Assembly (NCBI RefSeq): GCF_000208745.1
Contig: NC_030855.1
Location: 11,352,561 to 11,416,560 of the forward strand
Direction of reading: 5' to 3'
Source: Theobroma cacao
Taxonomy: Eukaryota; Streptophyta; Magnoliopsida; Malvales; Malvaceae
Length of the DNA stretch: 64,000 nt
Shown piece after piece: positions 1,331 to 51,578 of this stretch. The position numbers were made by a program, and so were the translations under genes. The notes under the pieces are model-generated. The model was given only the letters and a program-made list of their open reading frames with translations. It searched no databases and was not told the DNA's origin. Position 1 is the stretch's first letter. Each line of letters opens with the position of its first letter.

Positions 1331-3034
1331 TTTCAGCACCAAAATCAGCCATAAAAACCTCAAAAATTCCAGCAATTAACCTAAAAAAAATCAGCTTTCT
1401 TACCTCATAATTTTCAGCTTTTTTCTTCCTCTAAAAATTACAGCAAAAAGCTCTCTTTTCCTCCCTCAAAGTGCAGTAAAACCGTGCCAAGAAAAGAGCA
1501 AAATTTTCATTCCTTTTCTCTTCCTTTCCCACGATTTTTCTTTCCTTTTTCCTTTCTTTTCTTTTGCTCAGCTTTTGGTTCTATCTTCCTCTTCATAATC
1601 GACTTCTCTCTTCTATCTCTTTTTTTCTTTCCTTTATTCTTTTGTTCAGCCGGCCCCACCTTACATTTCTACATTCTTCTCTTTTGTTTCCTTTGTTTTT
1701 TCTTTTATCTTTATTCCTTTGATTTTTGTATGGCCAGCCATTCACCTTAGGACTCTTTGGTTTGACTTTTCAACATCTTTTCTTCATTCCCATCCAAACC
1801 ACATCATTCCCATCCCTTTTATTTCCTTATTGTTTTATTATTTATTTATTTTATTCTCTCCAAATAATGCAATTTACATGTAATTCCTCAACTTCATTTT
1901 ATTTGATACACCTCTCTCAAATTTTTCATATTTTAAAATTAATTCTTTCGACACGTGTAAAAAAAATTCTAATTTCCTTCTATCTTCCTTTTCTTACACG
2001 TGTATAATCAAAATATCGAGATCGCATTTCAACATGGTGTCACCATAATATTTAAATATTTACTTACCCGCGTTAACTCTATTTAATAAAATCACGCTGA
2101 CACAATTTATCGTCGTTTTCCTTCAAAATTCTTCTTTACTTTTTCTCCCCCACTGAAATTAGTCATATTCCATTTTTCATGACTAATTTCGACAACATAT
2201 AAAATATTAATATTTTAATATTAATTTTATTAAATAAAATATTATTTTATTTCAAAAATTTTCACTTGCCTTCTTTGGTTCCGAAACACATCATTACATC
2301 TTGGTTTACTTTCGAATCATCCTTTAGCTTACTAATTCCTCTCCAACGAAAATATTATTATTTAATTGTTGTTTCTACACGCGCGAAGCATTTTATTCTT
2401 GAACGTTCCTTTCATCCTTTGTCGCTCTTTAGCACGCTAGTTTGCATCAAATGATCATTCGTTTGATCAATAAGGTCTTATTTGTGTCCAACGAGGGTGC
2501 GGGGTATTACAATAGCTAGTGATGAGACTTGGGAATGTTTTGTAGTTGAGGTTGTTTATTCATTTTAAAGTGATTAGGATGGTACAAATAATAGCCATTT
2601 AATAGTAGTTAGAAACTAGTTAGGAATGACTAGTAGAACCTAATTTAGAAAATAGCTTTGGAATAGTAATAATGCCAAGTTGGGTTGATGGTGATGTTGT
2701 TGTGTGTGATAGGTTCCAACGAAACCCTACACCTTCATTCGGAACATTAGTCAAAGCTAGAGCCCACCAAAACATCAATAAAGATTGGTGAGTGAACTTA
2801 CATTTCAAAATTTCTTTGAGAAATGTAATTTATTTGAATGAACATTTGAATGATTTTATCCAACTTTTCTTTAAAAATGTGTGCCAGGGAGCAAGCCCTT
2901 GATAAAATGTTTTAATGCTGTGAAAAATGTGAAATGTGTAAAAAGATGAATCCATGTGCTTTTATATTATGTTGGTAGGTATATATATGAGTGTATGTTT
3001 TGTATTGATGAATAATGTTGTGTGATGATGTTGA

Positions 3035-3140
3035 AGTGTGCGAGTAGGGAGTGCACACATGATGATGATAGAGTGTGCGAGTAGGGAGTGCACACATGAT
3101 GATGTTGAAGTATGCAAGTAGGGAGTGCACACATGATGAT
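3035..3140. repeat. Minisatellite of LTR copy 1 (three units)
   Basis: Three copies of a unit of about 40 bp containing 'gtagggagtgcacacatgat'. The same position in the other family-B LTRs carries diverged units (14820-14940, 34240-34345, 44830-45010, 50120-50310). Confidence 0.8.
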
Positions 3141-3199
3141 GATATTGCATTGAGTTGAGTGTGGTGGGATGATATGCATGATGATGTATGTATATACAA

Positions 3200-3329
3200 A
3201 TATATATATATATATATATATATGTGTTATAGAAAGTCTATGAAAATTATTATGATTGTGTTGTNTATATATATATATATATATATATGTGTTATAGAAA
3301 GTCTATGAAAATTATTATGATTGTGTTGT
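3200..3329. repeat. Exact duplication around a single N (likely assembly join)
   Basis: A run of TA repeats plus 'gtgttatagaaagtctatga' and the following 'aaattattatgattgtgttgt' occurs at 3201-3264 and again, without visible difference, at 3266-3329, separated by one N at 3265. The other family-B LTRs have the block once. This looks like a contig junction at a TA microsatellite, not biology. Confidence 0.75.
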
Positions 3330-4438
3330 GTGTTGGCATTGTTAATTGCTCCCAAATTGCTTTCCATTTCAACAAGAAAATGGCTTTTGATGTAACAAGA
3401 CCCATTTCACTTAAAATACTCAATTTCTTGCTGCAGCGAGATTCATTTTCACTGCAGTGAGAAACTCTAGAGTTTTGGGGGTTACACTGGCCTAATTCTC
3501 GCTGCAGTGAGCATAAATCTCGCTGCAGCGAGAAACTCTCGGGTTCTAGTGTAGTGCTTTCATTTCGATGAAGATTTTGACCACATTACCTTTCGAACTG
3601 GGAAACATGGTAAACATAAAAGTTGTATTCCTACCTTTTAGGTTTTTAATGTTTCAAAAATCAGGTCAATTGGACTTTTGTAGTGGAAGATATGCTAGAA
3701 AAACTAAAACACATGCAAATTAACACTGTTTCTCGCTACAGCGAGAAACTTGCTGCCATGCTTGCTACCTAGCTTGATTTTGACATATTTTGTACCCATT
3801 TAACTTCATGGATTGATCATGGGTTTTTACAACACTATGAGGTTATTAATCAAAGTTTGAAAAGAGGGTTTTTGAGTAAGAAATTAAATCAATTGCATTG
3901 TTTTTGAAACAAATGCATCATGATTCCCAAATTCTTCCTATCGATCGCTTGTTCCCTTCTTATGTTCACTCACTGAGTTTAAACTCACCTTTTTCAAATT
4001 CATGTTTTCAGATCAAGAGGTAGCCGGTAACTAGGTCGAGGTGTTCTTGTAGATTCGTATCCTTGGTAGGTATCTTGGCATTTCGTAGCCGCACCTTCAC
4101 CTTGGTCACTTCGTTGGAAGCCCAAAGTCATTTTTGTTGTAAATACGTACCTGTGGTGTAAAGTACTATGATGTATACCTTAGACCATATATGTACATTT
4201 TGATTGGTAAAGCTACCATGAGTGGCAATAGTTAATGTTATTTTGGGATAATATAAATGCAGTTTTGATTGTCATAATTTACTATTAAAGTACTTAAAAG
4301 GTTGAGATTATGAAATGTAAATGTAAGAATAGTTGACGGGATAATGAGTACGATTATATAAATAGGCTTGCTTAGGCTTAGTGGGCTACATCCATTAGGC
4401 CCATGTGTTAGTGATGGCCCAAAAATTGGGTCGTGACA

Positions 4439-12534: not shown

Positions 12535-15500
12535 TGATAACTCTCTTATATATAGTTATTTTGACACATTTTGAGGGCTGAAGTAACTAATTCTTTGAGA
12601 TTTTAGGTTTGGATTTTAGTATTTTAGGTGTTTTTCTTAGTTAAGTTTGATTACATGTTGATCAGTCTAATTTAGGTTATTTTAAGTTAATTTTATGTTA
12701 ATTTGTTTTAAATTACTTTAAATATAGTTATTATTGACTTCTCTCATTACTTTTGTAGGAAATTTAATGAGAAAGGCTTACTTAATGAAAAATCGTGCAC
12801 GTATGTAAAGCCTTCATTCGTACATGCTGCAGTATTTGAAGGATAACTTGAGCTACAAAAGTTCAATTGATGTAATACTTGAGCCAATGGAAACTAAGGG
12901 ACAAAGCTACAACTTTCATGTTTATTACTTAGCCTAGTTTAGATCAGATTGAGGTGAAAATTGCTTTGGAAGTGACTTGATTGATGTAGTTTTTGCACAA
13001 ATCAGCAGATGGAATGAAGGCCTCTGTGCCAAGGTGCATCAAATCTCCCATAGTGCCACTGAAGACCAGAGCATCGTAGAGTTAAGGAAGTGGTGCCACA
13101 ACACCTTAATGCACCATACATTGGCTCCAGGCCACAATGTCGCAACGCTAAGGAGACCAAGGCCACGATGCCAACTATATTTCCAAAAAGAATAAAATCT
13201 TTACAGGATTTTGGAAATTAAGGCTTTTAGGGGCTATTTAAGGGGTCTTTTAAGAGGTTTTCAAAGGGAAAAAGGCAAACAACTATTCTGGAGAAAAGAC
13301 CCAAAAAACAAAGCAAGAAAGCAAGAGAATTTGAGGGAGAATTGAGATCAAAAGTGTGAGACCTTGACCCCTATTGACCCGTAACTAGCAGTAGACGCGA
13401 TAACACGAACTAGGGGTAATTTCATCATTTCTCTTGGTGAGCCCCTAAAAGTAGTTTTCTAATGTTATTAAGGTCCAAGTAGGCCTAAGGAATAGTTTGG
13501 GATAAAATATTCTGCATGCGAGAAAATAATAATAAAATAATAATATTTTTATCAAAGAAGAATTTGTGAGATAAAAAGTGATTTGGAAGTCAATTGAGTA
13601 ATAATAAGGTATTTTGGGTGCCAAGGAGACAAGAGGAGGCAAGAGGAAATTTTTAAAATAAAATAATATTTTATTAATAAAATAATATAAAAATATTAAT
13701 ATTTAATCAGTGTCAAAATTTTTCATGAAGAAGGAGTATATGGTCAATCTAAGTGGGGGAGAAGAAGAATGAGAGAATTTTGGAGAAAAATGACGTTAAT
13801 GGGGCCGCGTGTCTTTATTAAGTAAAGATAGCGTGGGCAAATAAATATTTTAAATATTATGGGGATACCTCGTTGGAGTACAACTTCATACTTTATTTGT
13901 ACATGTGTAGAAAAAGGTAATAGAAGGAAATTGGAGTTAAATGAGTGTTAGGAGGATTAAATTAAAATGGAAGGAAACAAAAAGGGTAAAACGGTCATTT
14001 TACATCTCGAGTTGAAATTTTTAAGTTTTCATGAACCTGAGTATTTCTAAATCCTTATGGACCTTGTCTCAGTCTTAAAGAAGTAAAACGATTGCATAAA
14101 AGTAATGGAAAAAAATGACATAGTTAAGGGCATTTTGGTAATTTTGCTAGAAAGGGATAAACTTAAGCCACAAAAATTTTTAAGTTTCTAGGATGTTCTT
14201 CAAATTTCCAGCACTTCTTCTTCTTCTCTTTCCTCTCCCACGTTCTCTCACCCCCCCATGGAAGCTTGCCTTGAATTTCCATATATTTCCTTGAGTTAAC
14301 CCCGTTTTTTTATGTTTTTGTGTACCCTTTTCCAAAGTTCTTTGTGCTCTTCTACTTTTTCACCATAAAAACCCTAAAAAACCTTTCCTTATTACACTTT
14401 CTCACTAGCTGGACGTTCTAGAGAGAGAAACTGAGATTTTCATGATAGTTTGAAAGCTTTTGGGAAAGAAATTCAATTACAAAGCTACCAAGGTCCCAAC
14501 GAGGCCCCACTGTTCCATTTGGATCATTAGTGGAGGTTGAAGTCGAGTAAAGATTCAACAAATACCGGTGAGTGAACTTGCATTTCAAAATTGTTTTGGG
14601 AGACATAATTGTATTGGTATGAAACATTGAATGATTTATTCCAACTTGTCTTTAAAAACATGTGCTTGGGAACAAGCCTTTGATAAAATATTTTGATGTT
14701 GTGAAAATGTGAAATGTGTAATAAGACGGACTTATGTGCTCCTATACTGTGTTAATATATATATATATATATATATGCGCATACAAATAATGTTGTGTAA
14801 TGATATTGACTCGGTTATGTGCGAGTAAGAGTGTGCATAAGCCGATGCTGACCCGGCTATGAGCGCGAGGAGTGCTCATAAGCCGATACTAACCCGGCTA
14901 TGTGTGAGTAAGAGTGCGCATAAGCCGATGCTGACCCAACCATGTGCTAGTGGGAGTTTATATGAGTTGATGATGATGGGAGGGTGTGTATGATGATGGA
15001 TATATATATATATATATACATATATAGATATGTGTGTTATAGAAAGTTCATGAGTATGGTATATGGAGTTGCACATGTGAATCTTGCATGTTGAACTTTG
15101 GGAATTGTTATGCATTTCATGTTGATTTTTTTTCATTTTAGCAGGATGGGTTTTTCTTGAAAGGAAGGAAACTTTTTCATGGTGCTCTGTTTCTCGCTGC
15201 AACGAGAATGAATCTCGCTGCAGTGAGAAACTCTTGGATTCAGAGGGGTAATGCTGGTCGAAATCTTGCTGCAGCGAGAATGCCTTTCCACTATAGCGAG
15301 GACCCGTTGTTTACTTGACTTGAATTGCACGAATGCTATTAAAGTTTTCACTCTTCAAATCCTTTGTTGAGCATGGACCCTTTTTATCAAGTGATTTACT
15401 CATTTGGGGTTTACATGAGGGGTTTTAATAAGAGCTAAATTAAATTGCATTGTTTTAAAGATAAATGCATCATGGTTTTCTTTAAACCTTCCTTATTGTT

Positions 15501-16755
15501 TGCTTGTTCCCTTCCTTGTTCACCCACTGGGTTTATACTCATCGTTTTCAACATCATGTTTTCAGATCAAGAGGCAACTGGTAACTAGGTTGAGGTGTCT
15601 TCGTATATTCCACCCTTGGTAGCTGTCTCGGCATTCAGTAGCTGTACATTCATCTGAGTTTCTTCGTTGGAAGTCGAGTACTTTTTGTTGTGTATAGACA
15701 AACTCCATGTAAATTATTAAGACATATGTTTAGATAATACATGTAACTTTGATTGGTAATGCCACTACGAGTTGGCAATGCTTAACATTATTTTGGTTCG
15801 AAATTTTGAAGTGTGACTTTAGTAATTCAGATGGAATAATGAGTAGGATAATATAGATAGGCTTGCTTGGGCTTAGTGGGCTATGTCCATTGAGCCCTTG
15901 CGCTGGTCACAGCCCGAGATTTGGGTTGTGACAAAAAGCTTCAACTATTAGTTTTTTCTCTATTTTTGTTTTTCTCTTATTTTCTTTAACATGGTTTAAT
16001 GGCTACTTTTCTTTGGACAATGTTTTTATTAGATATTATGAGCTAAATTATCTTTCTAGGATTATGGTGAATTTTAACATGTAATTTGAATATTTGTTTC
16101 TCCTTTATTTTCTATGAATGGGTATAGTTTTGCTTATTCAAATATGTTCTTAGTGCTTTTAATTGTCTAGCCAACAATTGAAAGATTTGTTAATCTAGAT
16201 GAGAGTCGATAGAGTAATTGTAGATTAGACTAAGATTTGAATAGTGTACGTTCACATCATTTAGGTGATTTGATTCACAATTAGGGTAGACATACGCCAA
16301 AATGCCATGCATAGCCAAATTAGAACACTAGCTTAATGAACCTTATTTAATTGATTGCTATAGACATATAGTGACCCAATTAAGTTTGGTCTTTGTACAG
16401 GCATCTTAACAAAGACTTGTGCATAGTTTAGATTCTAGGTTAGCAAAACCACCCATGAATGTAAGTAATAAGAGAAGTTGGTATTAGATTAAGTGTTAAA
16501 TGAACTCATAATCCTAAGTTTTAATCTACTACCTTTCTCTAGTATATTTTTAGTCTCCATTAATTAGTTTAGTTTTCTAACTAAATTTAGTTTTGATTGA
16601 TTGTTTACGAAATTAAGTTACTTAAATAAAATTGATCTGTCATAATTTTAGTACTTATTGAATGATTAGGAGTAAATCTTTGTGGGATATGATTCTAGAC
16701 TTACTATTTATATTACTTATTCAATGCGTATACTTGTGTGTACTAAATCGAAACA
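12535..16755 (+). mobile_element. Athila-type gypsy 5' LTR, interrupted by family B copy 2
   Basis: Starts TGATAACTCTCTTATATA and ends ...gaaaca before the PBS. It is homologous to 57916-59549, which starts TGATAAGTCTATTATATA. Removing the family-B LTR 13355-15933 and one 5-bp duplication leaves about 1637 bp against 1634 bp for the 3' LTR. Shared landmarks include the 'gagctacaaaagttcaat' and 'gctacaactttcatg' segments. The left flank ctaag (12530-12534) has no matching copy after 59549. Confidence 0.85.
13355..15933 (+). mobile_element. Family B solo LTR copy 2 (intron-less)
   Basis: TGTGAGACC...GGTTGTGACA, 2579 bp, flanked by a perfect 5-bp duplication aaaag (13350-13354 and 15934-15938). 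It interrupts the Athila 5' LTR. No internal retrotransposon domains, so it is a solo LTR. It differs from the other family-B copies in two ways: it lacks the GT-AG segment (junction at 14492/14493), and it has about 450 extra bases (about 13500-13960) similar to family C. It contains a three-unit minisatellite (14820-14940) and palindromes near 15190-15300. Confidence 0.88.
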
Positions 16756-22094: not shown

Positions 22095-23821
22095 TGCTAG
22101 GAATGGCATGATTAGAGCATCAACGTAGCAGAATAAAAAAAATTGAAATAAAATAAAAATCATGCCTCCTACCTTTGGATCACCTTAGTTGGTTAATGTA
22201 AAGTTAAGCACCACATAAAATAAAAAAAAATTTTACCTTTCCAAATGATATCGTAATCAAGTGGATTCCTTTTGGTGACAAAACATGAACACCTTTTGTG
22301 TGAAAGAATCCCAGCTACTCAATCGCTTGGCCTCTAATGATGCACACACGATTGCAACGGATCCTTCTCAAGGAGAGGGCTTTATGCCACGGGTTTGTGC
22401 TAGCAAGTGGACAATGATTTGTCCTGTTTTCTTCTTTGATTTCAAGCAAAGAATCAAAGGAGAAGTTTTCAAATGCAAATAAACCTCTCAAGAGTGACAG
22501 CACTCAAGAGAAAATCCCTTTTTTTTTCATTGTTTCCTTTTCCTTAAAAAAAAGAGTGGTTATAATGTGATATTTATATCTAGGTTTAACTTATTAAAAT
22601 TTGTAAAATAAGTCCTTAATATTATAACATTTATAATATTTAACAAGTATCTAATTAAACTCTTTAATTAGGTCCTTAGTAGTTAAAACCTAGAATTTGA
22701 TTTAAGGCTAACTTAAATCCTCACACTCTCAATTTAATCCAAATTGCAACCTTTGTGTGTGACCCATTAGGTTCCTAACATGTTGGCAATGGAATTGAAT
22801 TATAATATTATTAATTAATTAATTTAAATGAATGATATTCAATTTTAAATTAACTAATTCAATTCCATAGACCATGATTGGTATCTAGCAATACGTCACG
22901 GCCACCCAATTGTTAGGAGAGTTAAAGGATTTTTTGACAACCTTTCAGTGCATAGTTTTTTAGTGTAATTCATTCCTTCATCATATATCCCAAAGATGAT
23001 AAGAGCTTGGTACAGTGCCTACACTTATTGATCTCCATATTTGTTCTTGCAGTTAGATCATTAGCTTTATAGAGACTTATGAAACTCATTTCATAATCTC
23101 CTAATCACCTTGGCCAAGTATTTGATTAAGCTAATTTCAACCAAGAACTAATGAGATATTTCCCCTTGAATCACTTGGGGTGATGATTCCTATCTTGATC
23201 ACTCATTTGCCTCCATATGCTTCATACTATACTTAAAAACATCCTATTTTGGCATCCTTGATTAGGCACCCATAAGGATGAAATCAAAGCATAGTACTCC
23301 ACATACAAAACAACCTAGTGTCTGAAGTCTAAGGAGTAGTTACATAACTGACACATGAAAAGTATTGCATAGACACTTGAGTGAGGTACCAAATGCACTT
23401 CTCATGGTGGGTCATGTTCAGTGAAGTCACTCTCCCATGGTAAGCACCCACATGATAGTTCCAAGTATCTCTATACTTCAACCTATGAGAATGATTGCTT
23501 ACTTCACAAGTAAGAAACATAACATGTGCCAATCTTTGAGCATTATTGATGCCCTGTCTCAATAATACAATGATCAGGAACTTTTAAGAACAATGCTTTA
23601 ATGTATAAGGATCTCATAATTGTATCCCAATACAGTTCCTTTGCAAGGCATATATAATTCCATGGGCTTTATCTACATAAGTACAAAAAGTAATTGAATT
23701 ACAAACTTATTGATAAAGAACTACCTCAATGTTATTATGGATAACAAAATGTCATACATGAATATCTCAAAATTGCAATTCCCATACAACCACAGATTGA
23801 CTTGTAGGGCTTATACTAACA
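22095..23821 (-). mobile_element. Old Ty1/copia 3' LTR
   Basis: 1727 bp. On the minus strand it starts TGTTAGTATAAGCC and ends CCTAGCA. It is nearly collinear with the 5' LTR at 48006-55382 once two inserted solo LTRs are removed, which also gives the empty-site sequence for both (tatatcccaaagatgataag and cctatgagaatgattgct). Left flank is ctatc. Small reading frames in it are not supported as genes. Confidence 0.9.
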
Positions 23822-27480: not shown

Positions 27481-27492
27481 TGGTATCAGAGC
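27481..27492 (+). other. Sirevirus primer-binding site (tRNA-Met)
   Basis: tggtatcagagc two bases after the LTR end. This is the standard Ty1/copia PBS complementary to the 3' end of initiator tRNA-Met, and it is unmutated. Confidence 0.93.
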
Positions 27493-27536
27493 AGGTTCCT
27501 TGTTATTAAGGCTTAACATCCTTTGGGAGGATCTAA

Positions 27537-29129
27537 ATGGGTCAACAAAAATCCATAATTGCTGAGGGACAATCAACAAACAGACCACCTCTGTTTGATG
27601 GCTCTAATTACCCTTATTGGAGCACAAGAATGTCAATCTATATTAGGGCTATAGACTATGAAATGTGGGACGTCATAACTGATGGACCTTTTATGCCCTC
27701 AACCGTGAATGTAGTGACAAATGAGTTGATGCCCAAGCCAAGATCTAAATGGACTAAGGCTAAAACTAAGAAAGTTCAACTAAATTTTAAGGCCATCAAC
27801 ACATTACATTATGCCTTGATCCCCACTGAATTTAACAAAGTCTCAAGCAGTACAACAGCTAAACAAGTGTGGGAGAAACTTAGAATAATCCATGAAGGGA
27901 CTTCTTAAGTCAAGGAGTCCAAAATTGCCCTCTTAACACATAATTATGAAATGTTCAAAATGGAGCCTGGTGAAGACATCACCAGCATGTTTGATAGATT
28001 TACAAACATCACAAATAAATTGAGTCAGCTAGGCAAGGCTATTCCTGAACATGAATTAGTAAAAAGACTGCTTAGGGGTTTACCAAAAAACTGGAAGCCT
28101 AAAGTGACTGCCATTAGAGAGGCTAAAGATCTAAACATCATCACACTTGATGAGATTTGTGGTTCTCTTCTTACTCATGAGCTGAAGCTTAAGGAAGAAG
28201 AAGAAGAAGACCGAAGGGAAGCAAAGGAAAAGAAAAAGAGTATTGCGCTTAAAGCCAACATCCTTGAAGAAGAGTTGGAAGAGCTTTCCTGTGGTGATGA
28301 TGAAGAATTAGCTCTGGTTGCAAGAAAATTCAGAAAGCTAATAAGTAGAAGAAACCAAAGGCTAGCTAGAAGAGGTTTCAGGAAAGACCAAGGTGCCTTA
28401 TGGAAAAACAGAAATAAAATTGACTCCAACAAAAAGGAGCTCATCTGCTACGAGTGCAAGAAACCTGGTCACTTCAAGTCCGAATGCCCATTGGAAAAAG
28501 ATGAAACTCCCAAGAAAAATAAGAAATCCAAGAAAGCAATGGTGGCTACTGCATGGTCGGATAGTGACACTTCAAGCTCTAAAGCTGAAGATGAAAAATC
28601 TGAGAAAAGAGCCAATATTTGTTTAATGGCACAAGATGATTAAACAGAGGTATCCTCATCCCCCTGCAATAATTCTTTTGATGACTTGCAAGATGAGTAT
28701 GAATGCCTTTATGATGATTTTGAAGAGCTTTTTTCAAAATACAAATCATTAAAGAAAAAGGCTACATTACTTGAAAATGATTTGGATCAAATTAAACAAG
28801 AGTTTACTTTTGTTTTTGAGCAAAGAAATATTTTGCAAATTGAGTTAGAACACTCAAAAACAGACTTCGAGGTTTTAAAACAAGAACTGGAAAACAAGTC
28901 TAAAGCTTTGCAAATAACTCTTGATGAAAACACAGCTCTTAAAAGTTTGAAAAATGAATTTCCAAAAAGAGATGTGTACAAAAAGAAAGATTCTGCTAAT
29001 ACATCACTAAGATGCTACATTTGTAGTAAAATTGGTCATTTATCACATGACTATTTTAAGAAAAGAAAAGTGCAGAAAATTAAGAAAATCTGGGTTCCTA
29101 AGGGATCCTTTGTTGCAACTAACACTTAA
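27537..29129 (+). pseudogene. gag: Sirevirus gag
   Basis: One frame from ATG 27537 runs with in-frame stops at 27906, 28641 and 29127. It begins MGQQKSIIAEGQ then RPPLFDGSNYPYWSTRMSIY, the SIRE-type gag start (FDG.NY.YW). Next come VKRLLRGLPKNWKPKVTAI, a charged E/K-rich segment, and a perfect CX2CX4HX4C knuckle CYECKKPGHFKSEC at 28446-28487. A coiled-coil-like region (28686-28970, rich in E/L/K) precedes a second knuckle, CYICSKIGHLSHDY, whose last Cys is Tyr. Two knuckles separated by a long helical region are typical of Sirevirus gag. Starts 45 bases after the PBS. The first two stops are defects; the third may be near the natural gag-pol boundary. Confidence 0.9.
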
Positions 29130-32100
29130 GGATCCATCAAAGTATGGGTACCTATAAAGAAAAATTGAAATTCTATTTTGTAGGTTGAGCTGGACTTAAA
29201 GGAGACATGTTCAAGAGCTCAACTCAAGAAGAAACAGCCTTGGTACATGGACAGTGGCTGTTCACGACACTTGATAGGACATGAAATGCTGTTTGCTGAG
29301 CTGGATAAGAGAAAGGGAGGAACCGTATCCTTTGGAGATGATTCAAAAGGAAGAATCCATGGTATAGGTACTGTTGGTAAGAATTCCCAAACTCAAATTA
29401 GTCATGTGTTATTGGTTAAAGTCTTAAAGCATAATTTACTAAGTATTAGTCAATTATGTGATAAAGGACTTAAAGTATGTTTTGATTCAACTAAGTGTGA
29501 AGTAATAGATATGAGTACAAATAAAATCTCATTTATAGGAAAAAGATTGAAAAATATGTATGTAGTTTTTCTTAAAGATCTTGAAGTAAATAGTGAAGTA
29601 TGTCTTGTTGCAAATGCTAAAAATGATAGTTGGCTATGGCATAGGAGATTAGGACATGTTAGCTTGCATACCATGTCAAAATTAATTAAGAAAAATCTTG
29701 TTACTAGACTGCCGGAGTTAAAATTTGAAAATTATAGAATATGTGATGCTTGCCAACTAGGAAAACAAGTTAAAACATCTTTCAAGTCTAAGAAGACTGT
29801 TTCAACATCTAGACCTCTTGAATTGCTTCATATTGATCTATTTGGTCCAATAAGCACAACTAGTTTAAGAGGAAAATCTTATGGCTTTGTAATAGTTGAT
29901 GACTATTCTAGATATACTTGGGTTTATTTTCTTGCTCATAAGAATGATGCTTTATCAGCCTTCTTAAGTCATTGTACGAAATTAGAAAATGAAAAAGGAC
30001 TAGCCATAGTTAGCATAAGGAGTGATCATGGAGGAGAATTTGAAAATGATGAGTTTGAAAAATTTTATAATGAAAACGGGTTGAAACACAATTTTTCTGC
30101 ACCTAGAACACCCCAGCAAAATGGAGTTGTAGAGAGGAAAAATCGAACCCCAAAAGAAATGGCTAGGACTATGCTATGTGAGAATAACCTACCTAAATAT
30201 CTTTGGCCTGAGGCAGTAAATACAACAGCTTATATTCTTAATAGAGTCTCAATAAGACCTTTGATTTCAAGGACTCCATATGAACTTTACAAAGGAAGGA
30301 AACCAAATATTTCTCACCTTAGGAGTTTTGGTTGCAAGTGCTTTGTATTGAACAATGGAAAACAACCCCTAGGGAAGTTTGATGCAAAGAGTGATGAAGC
30401 AATATTTTTAAGATATGCATTAAAGTCAAAGGCCTATAGAGTTTTTAACAAAAAGACCTTAACCGTTGAAGAATCAATTCATGTAGTTTTTGATGAGTCA
30501 AATCCTTTACAAAAAGAAGTTCATGATGATGTAGAAATCCTAGAAAAACAAATGGAGGAAATGAGTTTAGAAAAAAGCAAAAATAATGAAGAAAGCTCAC
30601 CTAGAAGAGAAAATGAAACTCCACCTCTAATAAATCTACAAAGAGCAGAAAATCTGCATGATGATCTACCAAGGAGTTGGAGATTTATAAGAGATCACCC
30701 ACAAGACCAAATAATAGGTGACATTTCACAAGGAGTTAAAACTGGGAAAGCAACTAGAGAAACTTATGAGTTTTCAGCTTTTATATCTCAAGTTGAACCT
30801 AAAAACTTTGAAGAAGCTGAAAAGGAGGAAAGTTGGATAATGGTCATGCAAGAAGAACTTGATCAATTCACAAGGAGTCGTGTATGGTCATTGGTACCTA
30901 GACCTTCAAATCACCCTATTGTTGGTACAAAATGGGTATTTAGAAATAAGGTAGATGAGCAAAGAAATGTAGTTAGAAATAAAGCTAGGCTAGTTGCAAA
31001 AGGATAAAACCTAGAGGAAGGAATATATTATGATGAAACCTTTGCTCCCGTTGATAGGATTGAAGCCGTAAGGTTGTTGCTAGCTCTTGCATGTTTCATG
31101 AATTTTAAATTGTTCTAAATGGATGTAAAAAGTGCATTCTTAAGTGGATTAATTCAAGAGGAAGTATATGTAGAACAACCACTTGGTTTTGAAGACTTTG
31201 AAAAATCTGATCATGTTTTCAAACTTCATAAAGCTTTGTATGGATTGAAACAAGCTCCTAGAGCTTGATATGAGAGGCTTTCAAAATTTATAGTTGAAAA
31301 AGGGTATGATAGAGGCAGCATCGATACTACATTGTTCATTAAGAGATATCTAAATGATTTAATTGTGCAAATATATGTGGATGACATTGTATTTGGTGCA
31401 ACTAATGAGGCTTTACGCAAGAACTTTGCTAAGGAAATGCAGGGTGAATTTGAGATGAGCATGATGGGAGAGTTGAGGTACTTCCTTGGTTTTCAAATTA
31501 AATAAAGTGAGGAAAGAATCTTCATCAACTAAGAAAGATACACTCAAGATATGCTCAAGAAATTCGATATGCTGAAACTGAAATCAATTTCCACACCAAT
31601 GAGTCCATCCACAAACTCGACTTAGATGAAAAAGGTAAGGATGTAGATCAAATGCTCTATAGAGATATGATCGGCTCTTTTCTCTATTTAACAGCAAGTA
31701 GACCAGATATTCAGTTTAGTGTGTGCTTGTGCGCTAGATTTCAGTCACAGCCTAAAGAAACACACCTAACAGCTGTTAAAAGAATTTTTAGATACCTCAT
31801 AGACATTCAAGGACTAGGAATATGGTATTCTAGAGACTCAACTCTTAGCTTAGTTGGATATTCAGATGCTGACTTTGCTGGCAGCAGAACTGACGAGAAA
31901 AGCACTAGTGGAACATGCCAATTTTTAGGAAGCATGCTTGTGTCTTGGTCCAGCAAGAAGCAAAATTCAGTAGCTTTGTCAATAGCCGAAGCAGAGTATG
32001 TATCACTAGGTAGCTGTTGTGCACAAATTCTTTAGATCAAGCAACAATTAAAAGACTATGGAATAACTATGCATAACGTACTAATATACTGTGATAACAC

Positions 32101-32997: not shown

Positions 32998-35574
32998 TGT
33001 CATGACCCAAATTTCGGGTCATGACCGACGCATGGGCCCAATGGACGTAGTCCACTAAGCCCAAGCAAGCCTATTAATCTGACGTGTTCATCATTCCATC
33101 ATAAACTACTAAGTCACATTTCATAACTTAGGATCAAAATAATATCAAACATTTGCCAACTCATACTGGCATACCAAACAAGTGTATATACACTATCTAC
33201 AACATGTATCTTAATAATTTACATTAGGTTTGTCTATACACAACAAAAGAATACTTGACTTTCAGCGGAGGGACTCGAACAAATGTATAGCTATTGAATA
33301 CCAAGACACCTACCAAAAGATGGATACAAGTCTACAAGGACTCCTCGTCCTAGTTACCTCGTGATCTGAAAACATGAAGTTGAAAACGGTGAGTATAAAC
33401 CCAGTGAGTGAACAAGGAAGGGAACAAGCAACAATAAGGGAGAATTTAAAATCATGATGCACTTGTTTCAAAACAATGCAATTTAGTTCCATTCATATTA
33501 ATAACCCCTCATCAAGCCCTTAAATGATTAATCATTTGAAAATCATGAACCCATACATAACGAACCATTTGAAGAATGAAAGCTTCAATGATACGCAAGC
33601 AAGTCAAATACGACAACGAATCTTCGCTGCAGCGGAAAGGTATTCTCGCTACAGCTACGTTGGGGTTTCTCAATTGGCCAAGGGTTTCTCACTAAACCTC
33701 ATTTTAAACTTAACTCATTTAGTCCTTAATGTCGAAAGTCCATGCTCAGATTTGGTAGCAAAGGAGTGAAAAATAGGGTAGCAATTAGACAAGATAGGAG
33801 ACAAAACAGAAAGTTTTTCACTGCAGCAAGATTGAATCATCTGCAGCGAAATTATAACTCAGAAACAAAAAGTTTCTTGCTACAGCGAGAATGAATTTCG
33901 CTGTAGCGAGAAGCTACAGTTTCATTCTCGCTGCAGCGAAAATGCATTCTTGCTGTAGCAAGTTTTCGATCAGTCTATCCCTCCAAACCTGAGAGTTTCT
34001 CGCTGTAGCGAAAATGATTCTCGCTGCAGCGAGAAATAAGGCACCAATGAAAAATTTACCTTTCTTCCCAAAGAAAAACCACCTTGCTGAAATGTCCAAA
34101 CCAACATGAAACGCATAACAATTTTCCACAGTTTCACATGCATTACAACCATATACCATTACTCATTAATTTCCTATATCACACATATTTACATATGTAT
34201 ACGCATAACCATCATCATTATCATCACCAGCTCATGCGCACTCCCTACTCGCACATGGCTGAGTCATCATCGGGTTATGCGCACTCCCTACTTGCACATA
34301 ACCGGGTCATCCTCGGCTTATGCGCACTCCCTACTCGCATATAGCCGAGTCAATGTCATTACACAACAATATATTCATATATATATATATATATCAACAT
34401 AATGTGGTAGTGCATGAATCAATAATAGTCACATGTCACAACATAAACCATTTCTCAAGAGCCTGTTCCCAAGGCACTCATTTTTAAGAAAAGTTGTATA
34501 AAATCATTCAAACACTTTGTACAAAACAGTCACATTCCCAAAATAGTTTTGATAGGCAGTCCACTCACCGGTATATTGTTGAGCCTTTAGCTGACTCTAA
34601 TTCCCCTAATGATCCAATTGGGATGATAGGGCTTCGTTAGAACCTAGAATCACATTAGCATCAGTAATAGGTCAATTCACATACTATAAACCTAAAGCTA
34701 TCTCTTAGCTAGCTTTCAATTGCCACTTTAAATGGCTATTTATGTTCACTATTTAAATCACTATAAAATGAATGAACATCCTCAATAATAAAATAGCTCT
34801 TAATCTAAATTACTACAATTATTCACAGCTAAAAATCAAGCTTGGTTCATTAGTCACCCTAGGGTTCCTTTGTAGTTGAATTCTCTTCCCATAGCTTCCA
34901 AACAAATGGGGTAATTCTCTTTTTCTCTCTCTAAGATGCCCAACTAGTGAGAGAAAGTATGGAAATAAGATTTTTCAAGGGTTTTAAGGAGAGAGAGTGA
35001 AAGAATACAAGAGTTCTAGTCATAAGGGCACAAAGGTATGAAAACTAGAGTTAGAGAGAGAAAATCATGCAAACTCTATATTAAGCTTCCATAGAGGTTG
35101 GAAGCAACGTGAAAGAGTAGAAGGAGGAAGAAGAAGGAGCTGTTGGAAAATGAGAGAAGAAGCTGCTGGAAGAAAGTATTTATAGCCAATCTTATCCATT
35201 CCACTTAAATTACCAAAATGCCCCTCCACCAATTAACTTACTCTCCTTTAACCCTTTATGAAATCTTTTTACTCTTTTAACATCGGGACAAGGTCCATAA
35301 TGGTCTAGACATACTCGAGTTCATGAAAACTTAAAATTTTAACCCGAGGTGAAAAATGACCATTTTGCCCCTACCGTGAAAATCATCAAAATTTTTGTTT
35401 CCTTTTCATTTTACCCCTAATTTCATCATCCATTTATGCCTTAGGCCTACTTAGGCCATAATATTGTTAAAAATCTTACTTTTATGGGCTTACTAAGGAA
35501 ATGACGAAATTACCCTTGATCAGGGATATCGCGTATACTTCCCTTTACGAGTCTATAAAGGTCAAGGTCTCACA
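32998..35574 (-). mobile_element. Family B solo LTR copy 3
   Basis: The plus strand reads tgtcatgaccc (32998) to ggtctcaca (35574), so on the minus strand TGTGAGACC...GGGTCATGACA, 2577 bp. Flanks are ctcct and ctctt, a 5-bp duplication with one transition. It lies within the Sirevirus post-pol ORF. It holds the intron-like segment on the minus strand (34857-34644), the densest palindrome set (33620-34040, perfect at 34019-34034), minisatellite units (34240-34345) and a minus-strand TATAAATA near 35190. Confidence 0.88.
33620..34040. repeat. Palindrome cluster in family B copy 3
   Basis: About ten copies of the CTCGCTGCAGCGAG palindrome in 420 bp with irregular spacing, most with one or two changes (for example ttcgctgtagcgagaa and ttcttgctacagcgag) and one perfect TCTCGCTGCAGCGAGA at 34019-34034. 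Spacers are unrelated and uneven, so this is neither a CRISPR nor a tandem satellite. Confidence 0.85.
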
Positions 35575-43564: not shown

Positions 43565-46228
43565 TGTGAGACCTTGATCTTTATAGATTCGTAACTAGGT
43601 GTAGAAGCAATAACACGGGCCAGGGGTAAGTTTGTCATTTTCCTAGTGAGCCCCTAGAAGTAGACTTTCAAATATTATTAAGGCCTAAGTAGGCCTAAGG
43701 CATAGATGAATGATGAAAATAAGGGTAAAATGACTAAGGAAATAAAAATAATGATGATTTTCAAGGTAGAGGCAAAATGGTCATTTTTCATCTCGAGTCA
43801 AAATTTTTAAGTTTTTGTAAACCCGAGTATTTCTAGACTATTATGGACTTTATCTTAGTATCAAAAGAGTAAAAAGATTACACAAAGGATTAGAGGAGAA
43901 CAAGCTAACTTGATAAGGGCATTTTCGTAATTTAAGTGGAGTTGGATAAGCTTGAGCTATAAACATCATTCTTTCCAGCAGCTTCTTCAATTTCCAACAA
44001 CTTCTTCTTATTCTTCCTTCTATCTCATGTTTATTTCCCCCTCCATGGAAGCTTGTTATGAAACCTCCATAACCTCTATCAAGATAGCTCCAATTTTCAT
44101 ACTTTTGTGCACTTTTGCATAGAACCTTTGTGCTCTTTCACCCTTTCACTTTAAAACCCTTGAAAAAAATCTTACTTCCATACTTTCTCTCACTAGCTAG
44201 GTGTTCAAAGAGAGAAAGAGGGAGCTTCTATAATAGCTTGGAAGAATTTTGAAAAGGAATTTCATTACAATCCACCAAGGTGAGTGATGAATTAGGAGTG
44301 GTTTTAAGTTATTGATAATGGCTAGTAATTGAAGTTATGAGTTGTGTTATTACTGAAGTTATTTATCTATTTGTAGTGTTACTAAAGAAAAGAAACTAAA
44401 TAGCCAATCAAATGGTAATTAGAAGGTAGATAGGAAGGGCTATTGAAGCTTGATTTGGGAAATAGCTTTTGGAGCGATATTAATGTAAATTGGATTGGCT
44501 GTGATGTTTTTGTACGTGATAGGTTCCAATGAGGCCCCTCATCCCCAATTAGACCATTAGGGAAGCTAGAGTCGACTAAAGGTTCAACAAATACCTGTGA
44601 GTGAACTTGCATAAAAGAATGTTTTGGGATATACAAATGTATTTTTGATTGAATCCCTTAAAGCGTTTTATTGGTTCTTTCTTCAAAACTCACACGAGAA
44701 CAAGCCTTTATGAAAATGGTTTTATGTTATGAAATTGATAGTGTGATGAATCCATATGTTTCTGTATAATGTTGATATATATATATATATACTATGTTAT
44801 AAATGGTACCATTGTGTGACAAATGTAACCGTGCATGTGCGGGGTGAGTGTGCACCTGCCGTTGATGACAGTGGTGAGGGAGATGGATGGTGATATTGCC
44901 TGTGTGCACAATGTGGGGGGATGTACACGATGGCATTAACTGTGCACGATATAGGGGGATGCACGCGATGACTCTGGCTATGTGCACGATGTGGGGGGAT
45001 GCACATGAGCTGGGTGAGATGGGATGGTATACAAATTGATATATGGTTAGGTATATGAATATGCAATAGAAAGACCATGGTTGTAATATGTGATTGTATG
45101 GCATGATGAATCTTGAAAATTTCCCATTTACTTGCAAATTGATTTTATTACAGCATCAAATGGATGTTTAGTACAAAGGAGGTCCCTCATTATTTAGGTG
45201 CCCGGCTTCTCGCTGTAGCGAGAAACATTCTATTTTTGCTACCTGCTACTCGCTGCAGTGAGAAACTTTCTGTTTTACTGCCTGTAACTTGCTGCAGCGA
45301 GAAACTTTCTGTTTTGCTGCTTGAATCTTGCTGCAGCGAGAAACTTTCTATCCTGCATGCTACCTTGTTCGATTTTGCCATATTTTCCACTTCTTTAACA
45401 TCATGGTTGAGCATGGACTTCCAACATCAAGGAATTAATTAATTAAGTTTGAAATGAGGGGGCATGGTGAGAAACCCTCAGCTAGTTGACAATTTGAGCC
45501 AAATTTCGCTGCGAGAATTCCTTTCCGCTGCAGTGAGGACCCGTCGTTTTACTTGACTTAACTTGTTTGAATGCTATTAAAGTTTTCACTCTTCAAATCT
45601 TTTGTTGTGCATGGACCTTTTATCATCAAGTGACTAACTCACTAAGGGTTAATGAGGGGTTTTAATAAGAACTAAACTAAATTGCATTGTTTTTGAAAAT
45701 AAATGCATCATGATTTCTTTAAATTTTCCTTATTGTTTGCTTGTTCCCTTCCTTTGTTCACTCACTGGGTTTATACTCACCGTTTTCAACTTCATGTTTT
45801 CATATCAGGAGGTAGTCGGTAACTAGGTCCAGGTGTCTTCGTAAATTCGTATCCTTGGTAGGTATCTTAGCATTCGTAGCTGCACCTTCACCTTGGTCAC
45901 TCCGTTGGAACCTAGAGTCATTTTTGTTTGTAAATATGTACATGTGATGTAAAGTGCTAAGATGTATGCCTTAAACCATATATGTATATCTTGATTGGTA
46001 AAGCCACCATGAGTGGCAATGGTTAATGTTATTTTGGGCTAATATAAATGCAGTTTTTGATTGTTATAATTTACTATTAAAGTACTTAAGGGTTGAGATT
46101 ATGAGATGTAAATGTAAGAATAATTGGCGGGATGATGAACAGGAGTATATAAATAGGCTTGCTTGGGCTTAGTGGGCTACGTACATTGGGCCTATGGTCG
46201 GTCATGGCCCGAAAATTGGGTCGTGACA
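43565..46228 (+). mobile_element. Family B solo LTR copy 4
   Basis: TGTGAGACC...GGTCGTGACA, 2664 bp. Flanks gtttt and gtctt form a 5-bp duplication with one transition. It contains a full intron-like segment (44280-44522), TATAAACA near 43960, minisatellite units with gcacgatgtggggggatgca (about 44830-45010), TA repeats, and palindromes at 45205-45345 and 45505-45540. No protein. Confidence 0.88.
44280..44522 (+). other. Putative GT-AG intron in family B LTR (copy 4)
   Basis: Donor ACCAAG|GTGAGTG and acceptor TACGTGATAG|GTTCCAA bound 243 bp that copy 2 lacks exactly: its sequence reads ctaccaag|gtcccaacgagg at 14492/14493. The homologous segments are 34857-34644 on the minus strand (214 bp, copy 3), 49721-49819 (99 bp, copy 5) and 2512-2712 (3' part only, copy 1). 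Confidence 0.65.
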
Positions 46229-48913: not shown

Positions 48914-51578
48914 TGTAGTACCCCGTATTTTAATACAATGGCTAATAGAGTTTACGGATGCCAATTGAGGCTGATTATTAAGTTAAAAGGGTAATTCAGA
49001 AGTAAACTTGTGAAATCTCAGTCTCCATAGGCACATAACTAGAAGTAGACGTGATAATGCGACCAGGGGTAATTTCATAATTTCTCTTAGTAGGCTCCTA
49101 CGAGTGGGTTTTTTTTTTTTATGCGATTAAGGTCTAAATAGGCCTAAGGAATGAATAAATGATGTTTATGATGGTAAATAAATGAGAAAAATAAAAATAA
49201 TGATAATTTCAACTATAGGGGCAAAATGGTCATTTTGCCTCTCGGATCTAAAATTTTTTGTTTCGTGAACTCGAGTACTTTTAGACTATTAAGGACTTTG
49301 TTTCAGTGTCAAAAGAGCAAAAAGGTTGCACAAAGGATGGGAGGAAGACAAAGCCACCATGTTAATGGCATTTTGGTAATTTTGGTGGAAATTTGGATTA
49401 ACTTAAAGCATAAATATCTAAGCTTCAGCAGCTTTCCCTTCTTCTTCTTCCTCCCCTTTCACGTTCCTTTTATCCTCCATGGAAGCTTGCTTTGCAACTT
49501 CCATAATTTTCTCTCTCTAGCTCCACATTTCATGCTTTTGCCCACTCTTTCATACGATTTTTCATGCTCTTCCACTTTTACACCTTAAAACCTTCTAAAA
49601 GTCTTTGTTTAGCACTTTCTCTCACTAGTTGAAAGTTTTAGAGAGAGAAAGAGAGACTTGCCATAGTAGCTTGGAAGCTTTTGAAAAGGAATTCAACTAC
49701 AAAAAAAAAAAACCACCAAGGTGAGAAATGAGTAAGAATTTGATTTTAAGGTGTTAGAGATGGCTAGAAATTTGATTTATGAGCTGTTATATTTTTTATA
49801 GTTATATTGTGGGTGATAGGTTCCAACAAGGCCTCACATGTCCGTTTGAAGTAATAATTGAAGTTAGAGTCTATTAGAGGTTCAACAATCCCGATGAGTG
49901 AACTTGCATTTCAAAATTATTTGGGAATGTGAATGTATTTGCACAAAACCTTTAAATGATTTTATCCCATTTTTCTTAAAAATGGTACCTTGGGAACAAA
50001 TCCTTGATAAATTGTCTCTATGTGTGACATGTGGCTGTTATGGATTCTTGTACTACATTATGTTAATATATATATATATATGTTGTGCATTGATGGTTGA
50101 TATTGTGTGATAATGATAACCGTGTGTGTGCACGATGTGGGGGGATGAACATGCCAATGATGACGGTGGTGAGGGAGATAGATGATGATAATGCCCGTGT
50201 GCACAATGTGGGGGGATGTACACAATGGCATTGATTGTGCACGATGTGGGGGGATGCACACGATGACTCCAGCTATGTGCACGATGTGGGGGGATGCACA
50301 TGAATTGGGTGAGATGATGGTGGTATTGGTGTTTAATTATGTATATATGTATATATATATATGTTTGTGAAATAAAAGTTCATGAATATAGTATATGGTT
50401 GTAATGCATGTGAAAATTTGGCATGTTGAACTTTGGAAATTTTTGAGTATTTCATGTTGAAATTGGCATGATGAATCTTGAGAATGTCACATTTTCTTGC
50501 AAATTAAGTTTATTGCAGTACCGAGTGGATTTTTAGTGCAAAGGAGGTTTTTTTTACATTTAGGTGCCCTGCTTATCGCTGCAGCGAGAAACATTCTGTT
50601 TTGTCAACCAGAAACTCGCTGCAGCGAGAAACTCTCAAGTTCTGATGCAGTACCTTCACTTTGATGAAGATTTTGACTACTTTCTCGTCCGAAATGGGAA
50701 AAGTGGTAAACATAAAAGTTGTAGCCCTGCCTCTTATTTTTCTAATGGTTTAAAAATCAGGTCAATTGGACTTCGGTAGATGGAGATATGCTATAACACT
50801 GAAACACATGCAAACTGACACTGTTTCTCACTGCAGCGAGAAACTTTCTGTTTTGGCCATTTGAATCTCGCTGCAGCGAGAATGAATTTTGTTGCAGCGA
50901 GAAACTTGCTGACATGCTTGCTACCTTGCTTGATTTTGACCTACTTTTAACCCATTTAACTTCATGGATTGATCATGGGTTTGTGAAACACTATGAGGGT
51001 ATTAATCAAGGTTTGAAATGAGGGGTTTTTAGTAAGAAATTCAATCAAGTGCATTGTTTTTGAAACAAGTGCATCATGATTTCCAAATTCTTCTTATCGA
51101 TTGCTTGTTCCCTTCTTATGTTCACTCACTGAGTTTCGTACTCACTTTTTTAAAATTCATGTTTTCATATTTGGAGGCAGTTGGGACCTAGATTGAGTCG
51201 CACACATATGCTTGTCTTCTTTGTAGGTACTATGGCATCCCAGTAGCTGTATCTTCACCCAGAGTCACTCCACTGACGGTCTCGAGTCTATTACTTGTGA
51301 ACATGTATATGTAATGTAAACTACTAAGAGTCATGTTATAAATGAAATATGTATATGTTGGATTGATGATGACAGTACTTTGTTATAATATAAATATGAA
51401 TATTTAGTTGTTATAAAGTATTATTGGAACATTTACTTTTGAGAGTTACAGCACTTCATTTTAAAGATGATGGATGGGAATGATAATCGAAATTGCATAA
51501 AGAGGCTTGCTTGGGCTTAGTGGGCTATGCCCATTGGGCCTATGAGCCAGTCATGGCCCGAGAATTTGGGCTGTGACA
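48914..51578 (+). mobile_element. Family B solo LTR copy 5 (variant 5' end)
   Basis: TGTAGTACCCC...GGCTGTGACA, 2665 bp. Flanks ataaa and ataag, a 5-bp duplication with one mismatch; the uninterrupted sister sequence at about 22995 reads gatgataagagc, confirming the edges. Relative to other copies it has about 95 extra bases at its start (they begin at the equivalent of tgtgaaatctc, about 49009); its beginning TGTAGTACCCCG resembles family C's TGTAATACCCCG. It contains a shortened intron-like segment, a minisatellite (50120-50310), and palindromes at 50575-50905 (perfect at 50866-50881). Confidence 0.9.
50575..50905. repeat. Palindrome cluster in family B copy 5
   Basis: Six copies of CTCGCTGCAGCGAG or one-step variants (50577, 50611, 50828, 50866-50881 perfect, 50890), interleaved with unrelated sequence and partly with the phrase aaactttctgtttt that recurs also in copy 4. 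Confidence 0.85.

Follow-up and report, generated by a model that had tools for sequence, protein, structure and literature searches.

Two probable spliceosomal introns inside the LTR of a cacao Ty3/gypsy retrotransposon, absent to the base from some of its copies

The window analyzed here is a stretch of 64,000 nucleotides of the Theobroma cacao genome (contig NC_030855.1, positions 11,352,561 to 11,416,560), and within these 64 kb five copies of a repeat of about 2.6 kb, termed family B, were found. The copies, together with the putative exons and introns of their transcript, are as follows, numbered from the first base of the window.

2538..4438, + strand: copy 1 (c1), an LTR with its 5' part missing, from repeat comparison within the window
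2538..2712, + strand: 3' part of intron 1 in c1, with acceptor GATAG
13355..15933, + strand: copy 2 (c2), a solo LTR with TGTGAGACC...TGTGACA ends and a perfect 5-bp target duplication, AAAAG
14205..14492, + strand: predicted exon 1 of the LTR transcript in c2, its 5' end an uncertain estimate
14492..14493, + strand: junction in c2 from which intron 1 is absent, ACCAAG/GTCCC
14493..14567, + strand: predicted exon 2 in c2, 75 bp, from length comparison across 45 copies
14568..15565, + strand: predicted intron 2, kept in c2, 998 bp, CCG/GTGAGTGAAC...TTTTCAG/ATCAAGAGG, delimited by its losses in L045, L049, L056, L065, and L066
15566..15933, + strand: predicted exon 3 in c2 through the LTR end, its start taken from the L049, L065, and L066 junctions
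32998..35574, - strand: copy 3 (c3), an LTR with TG...CA ends
34644..34857, - strand: intron 1 of c3, 214 bp, with a decayed donor
43565..46228, + strand: copy 4 (c4), an LTR with TG...CA ends
44280..44522, + strand: intron 1 of c4, 243 bp, AAG/GTGAGT...GATAG/GTTCC
48914..51578, + strand: copy 5 (c5), an LTR with TG...CA ends
49721..49819, + strand: intron 1 of c5, 99 bp, internally deleted

Besides their TG...CA ends, c2 to c5 each have a target duplication, which is perfect in c2 and matches at four of five bases in c3, c4, and c5. A primer binding site was found after the LTR end at none of the five window copies; hence, c2 to c5 are solo LTRs and c1 is a fragment of one. The c5 copy sits inside a different repeat, of which an undisrupted copy occurs at 22999-23002. 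TATA-like boxes were present in c3, c4, and c5, and composition segmentation placed the beginning of a CT-rich leader near 14198, with no steps at the splice sites. From these boxes and the leader, transcription probably begins about 290 bp upstream of the exon 1 donor, and the start of exon 1 in c2 was set about 30 bp past the position that the TATA-like box has in the other copies. Exon 1 contains, at about 14258 and at the equivalent places of c3 to c5, a short conserved start, ATGGAAGCTT; it is an upstream ATG and may open a leader frame. In the U3 of c2, about 480 bp (13496-13975) are absent from c3 to c5 and match 1965-2374 in inverted orientation (about 75%). Upstream lengths suggest that the c2 subfamily has this stretch, as a subfamily-specific segment or an old insertion. 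A separate Ty1/copia element, with an initiator-Met-like primer site, gag, integrase, and the start of RT, occupies 27481-32032.

Family B consists of the LTRs of a Ty3/gypsy retrotransposon. Adjoining pieces carry gypsy-type coding sequence for gag, protease, RT, and RNase H: the Pfam domains Retrotrans_gag, RVP_2, and RVT_1 were found at locus L039, and Retrotrans_gag, Asp_protease_2, RVT_1, and RT_RNaseH at L040. Perfect target duplications were found in c2 and also at L003 (ACATA), L017 (CTCTT), L021 (TAGAT), L022 (AGTGG), and L016 (ATGGG), those at other places being imperfect or not found. A TTGGTATCAGAGC-like site, which we take to match initiator-Met primer binding, follows the LTR end in seven of the 32 examined places with a located LTR end, namely the intronless L004, L010, L027, L028, and L034 and the intron-bearing L011 and L023. 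The LTR length alone would presumably suggest the Tekay/Del chromovirus clade. No match was found in Rfam, nor in pattern searches of viral contigs and genome contigs. Candidate LTR pairs, assigned by position, strand, and primer site, agreed in intron state in five of five cases: L010/L002, L004/L009, L028/L033, and L034/L044 are intronless, and L011/L040 is intron-bearing. The members of L028/L033 are each other's best match, and the pairing of L010/L002 and L004/L009 rests on position, strand, and primer site. L044, itself an intronless LTR, also contains an inverted stretch (L044:1916-4881) that appears from its first bases to be an LTR of the same kind and lies 19 bp before the exon 1/exon 2 junction.

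The segment here called intron 1 had been noticed in a sequence-only reading of the window. Remeasurement returned the lengths given there for c3, c4, and c5 as well as the acceptor half retained in c1 (175 bp plus the acceptor), and c2 was indeed joined exactly at 14492/14493, where it reads ACAAAGCTACCAAG/GTCCCAACGAGGCC. When 169 pairs of donor and acceptor offsets (-6 to +6 on each side) were compared between c2 and each intron-bearing copy, the pair 0,0 was the best against c4 (19 of 24 bases) and against c5 (20 of 24); against c3, with its decayed donor CTAGG/GTGACT, the offsets -1/0 and -2/0 scored above 0,0 (16 vs 13). Possible deletion products of 60-400 bp were then scored for a splice pair, and with assumed splice-site frequencies, an equally good pair occurred in three of 543,740 products for c4, 13 of 520,578 for c5, and 68 of 522,578 for c3. 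When the products were restricted to those with 4 bp or more of microhomology, the corresponding figures were one of 3,185, four of 3,220, and two of 2,901. The c2 gap also scored the highest among 80 gaps of at least 20 bp between repeats of the window (15.3 vs 10.0 for the next) in a ranking over both strands with a slack of 3 bp on either side. Without slack, the aligner misplaced the c2 gap by 1-2 bases, and exact GT-AG edges were found at none of the 80 gaps. The top donor score alone was not above the shuffled null (P 0.145-0.83). The sequence-only reading, which expected a random deletion to strike both splice sites to the base only rarely, had overlooked an AGGT at both edges of intron 1 in c4 and c5, from which a microhomology deletion would yield the identical product. 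The window data alone favored splicing without settling the question.

The 324.9 Mb assembly was searched with a 261-bp query across the junction. Among the best 40 scored loci of 3,414 candidates, 26 were contiguous through the junction and 14 were split there, with about 240 bp between pieces of 90-99% identity, counts that are no loss frequencies since queries bearing the intronless junction favor intronless copies. In 38 stretches examined, 41 places were read, of which 24 had zero bases between exon 1 and exon 2 and 16 had 214-244 bp, starting with GTGAGT in 15 of the 16. Only one of the 25 places lacking intron 1 (L037) was inexact, with 13 bases left. A search for the pattern ACCAAGGTYCYAACRA returned 88 exact matches genome-wide, compared with two for the reversed control; 20 sites spread along this list, none examined earlier, all proved to be family LTRs by their exon sequence. 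The pattern ACCAAG-N(0-30)-GTYCYAACRARRCC had 79 matches (control 1), 78 of them exact and the remaining one overlapping an exact site. No leftover of 1-30 bases beside ACCAAG was found at the 78 loci genome-wide, in a one-sided test that detects leftover bases where the end of exon 1 and the start of exon 2 are intact, and not losses into the exons. Scattered edges, which the sequence-only reading had named as the mark of simple deletion, were hardly present in intronless copies, as 78 of 78 loci were exact, plus 24 of 25 in the other sample. Irregular deletions do exist in this region, as seen in L037 and L059. Where intron 1 is kept, its donor was GTGAGT in 16 of 19 copies and its acceptor ATAG in 15 of 20. 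Additionally, both of its edges were seen in L067 and L069, and in L068 no acceptor was found by the script.

Downstream of exon 2, a second putative intron of about 1 kb was recognized, CCG/GTGAGT...TTTTCAG/ATCAAG. Exon 2 was 75 bp long in 36 of 45 copies, 74 bp in three, 76 bp in three, and unread in three, and donor 2 was GTGAGT in 38 of the 45. All of these first 45 copies, read by eye, ran from exon 2 into intron 2 sequence, and an early view that intron 2 is always retained was dropped once joins of exon 2 to exon 3 were found. Of the 20 examined sites from the list of 88, 16 keep donor 2, L059 has the irregular deletion, and L045, L049, and L056 lack intron 2, with exon 2 joined directly to the sequence found elsewhere after TTTTCA(G). 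A search with L049 as the query gave, among the best 40 scored loci of 2,091, three that were contiguous over both junctions, 18 that ended near the exon 2/intron 2 border (query 172-186), and 19 intron-keeping loci that ended at the exon 1/intron 1 border (query 111), the last with 94-95% identity in exon 1. Two more doubly intronless loci, L065 and L066, read AATACCG/ATCAAGAGG, and the exact loss of intron 2 at the predicted junction was thus observed at five examined loci, with the end of exon 2 uncertain by one base in L045. An earlier placement of the intron 2 acceptor just upstream of the CTCGCTGCAGCGAG repeats (15144/15145) was ruled out by the junctions of L049, L065, and L066; the acceptor in use is TTTTCAG/ATC, at 15565/15566 in c2. 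In the 27 measurable copies, intron 2 was 700-1,363 bp long, its acceptor was TTTCAG in 11 and altered in the remainder, and its edges shared 0-1 base in 23 and 2-3 bases in four. Variable numbers of CTCGCTGCAGCGAGAA near-palindromes were observed in intron 2 (15190-15300 in c2, and likewise in c1, c3, c4, and c5), and upstream of them are tandem arrays with units of 37-43 bp whose copy number differs between LTRs.

Intron 1 sequences were homologous across distant subfamilies, for example between L011 and L031 (73% over 243 bp, E 8e-33), a similarity that points to a single origin of the intron. Phylogenies were built from the sequence upstream of the junction (24 vs 19 rows, after L010 and L037 were dropped) and downstream of it (23 vs 17 rows, after L010, L037, and the long branches L012, L016, and L031m were dropped). 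A single intronless clade was rejected by the AU test on both sides (p 1.7e-43 upstream, 4.9e-4 downstream). The upstream tree needed seven changes of state and the downstream tree six, and quick trees of all 45 rows needed six and six, of which strongly supported branches force two and three; all trees, including those of the five window copies, are unrooted, and gain and loss are inseparable by the trees alone. The positions of L003-L009 differed between the upstream and downstream trees, which indicates that the LTRs recombine and makes the count of independent losses uncertain and possibly inflated. Clades consisting entirely of intronless copies were also present, and intronless LTRs have therefore multiplied. 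The best matches of c2 were the intron-bearing L015 (94.8% upstream, 97.2% downstream) and L017 (96.0% and 95.6%), and its nearest relatives, with flank identities of 94-98%, keep intron 1 except for a duplicate of its own locus. This duplicate, L001 (G000:C1:8494465-8500725), includes the right flank and is 96.9% identical over 3,020 bp, with masked bases in the stretch. It is a segmental duplication or an uncollapsed haplotype and no independent loss event. The best match of L002 was L015, and the second best was c2.

The exact edges genome-wide, the scattering of intronless copies over more than one clade, and the exact loss of intron 2 argue strongly that the LTR transcript has two spliceosomal introns, that reverse transcription has repeatedly used partly or fully spliced RNA as its template, and that some intronless lineages have multiplied, a reading we consider very probable from the genomic sequence. 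Past its promoter, the LTR would consist of three exons, the second of about 75 bp and the third extending to the LTR end, separated by intron 1, of 178-244 bp when complete, and intron 2, of 0.7-1.4 kb. RNA begun in the 5' LTR would sometimes be spliced, and when such RNA served as the template, the minus-strand strong-stop DNA would copy the leader in its spliced form. The resulting insertion would carry two LTRs that lack either intron 1 alone or both introns, exact to the base. Such a loss would have occurred several times over, with some intronless lineages continuing to multiply, and c2 would be one intronless descendant that retained intron 2. The earlier proposal of an intron in the transcribed region of the LTR, with c2 descending from reverse-transcribed spliced RNA, accordingly gains support from the genome-wide exactness; its outline changes in that two introns rather than one appear to be present, the loss is not unique to c2, and intronless clades have multiplied. 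Introns persist in many copies, including the 19 loci that match exon 1 at 94-95%, and this persistence suggests that unspliced RNA usually, though not invariably, serves as the template.

Three other explanations of the exact junction were weighed. Intron 1 could have been retro-spliced only once or twice long ago, with recombination of packaged RNA or gene conversion later spreading the junction among lineages. The disagreement of the two trees around the junction for L003-L009 is in keeping with such spread, as is the mosaic look of c1, whose 3' end is nearest to c4 and whose sequence farther upstream is nearest to c5. However, within 250 bp of the junction both flanks of c2 and of L002 match those of intron-bearing relatives, so that spread would need two crossovers in short tracts, and the loss of intron 2 is an additional event; we regard this explanation as unlikely, although it is the strongest of the three. 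A deletion mediated by the AGGT microhomology, with splicing uninvolved, could account for any single loss of intron 1, since its edges share 4 bases in 15 of the 19 intron-bearing copies, c4 and c5 among them, and several other deletions in these LTRs likewise end at short repeats. As a general account it is very improbable: no leftover junctions were found at the 78 loci, the intronless copies are not one clade and yet have the identical edge, and it is largely refuted by intron 2, where edges sharing 0-1 base in most copies fail to explain an exact loss at five loci. An ancestral intronless state, with the segment gained later by insertion, can hardly be credited, for although unrooted trees alone cannot tell gain from loss, the intron sequences of distant subfamilies are homologous and at the same place, and both trees show intron-bearing copies interspersed with intronless ones, so that the same insertion would be needed several times.

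In HTLV-1, BLV, and foamy viruses, a splice donor lies in the R region of the LTR, much as donors lie inside the LTR here, but the acceptors are outside the LTR and, unlike in the cacao element, no intron is contained in it. In the literature searched, which covered LTR introns, related splicing, and LTR sequence strings and lay mostly outside subscription journals, no report of a natural intron contained within an LTR was found.

According to a 2025 review, plant LTR elements are generally without introns, with Ogre and EVADE as notable exceptions (PMC12786077). Ogre (Ty3/gypsy, Tat lineage; pea and Medicago) is likewise a plant LTR retrotransposon, and its intron is spliced from a subset of transcripts; that intron lies between the gag-pro and RT-RH-INT frames (PMC6317226), whereas both cacao introns are wholly inside the LTR, and neither is at an Ogre-like position between gag-pro and RT. 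The shGAG RNA of EVADE and Ty1/copia is spliced, as proposed here, but the splice removes the protease region of the internal domain (PMC12786077). The delta-Tas provirus of foamy virus, which is found in vivo too, is a DNA copy of viral RNA without the spliced-out stretch, which in that case lies in the tas gene of an animal retrovirus and not in the LTR (PMC3814592). In the 1985 assay of Ty (TyH3), the absence of an intron from new copies showed an RNA intermediate; that intron was put in by the experimenters, whereas the cacao introns are natural and would record the process over evolutionary time (PMC12786077). Transcripts of LTRs and solo LTRs of the ta-TRIM of Echinococcus are spliced in part, either internally to the element or from a solo LTR to adjacent sequence, unlike introns that are contained in the LTR and lost on copying (PMC4558846). 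In rice MIKKI, a solo LTR that had inserted into the element gave rise to an intron, spliced from that LTR into its host (PMC5599236), and the construct of PMC5542766 is an engineered vector.

If spliced RNA is the template, an LTR intron should be lost in a single cycle of retrotransposition. The genome may hence serve as a natural assay of intron loss in which, with two introns that differ in fate, the choice of template in plant LTR elements is testable from DNA alone, and it offers a genome-only route to LTR introns in other species. A tentative further proposal, which we think possible though rather doubtful, is that the two introns sort RNA by fate, unspliced RNA being the genome for packaging and reverse transcription and spliced RNA the messenger. 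If this were true, the retention of introns over many rounds of copying would mean that spliced templates are strongly selected or sorted against, any intronless lineage would be an escape from this sorting, and the LTR introns would record which RNA was copied in each round. As a caution, length classes of LTRs may reflect splicing. Kept introns with a single splice-site change were observed in L014 (acceptor GATAA), L019 (donor TTGAGT), and L021 (acceptor GACAG), copies suited to the question of whether an intron is preserved by a broken splice site.
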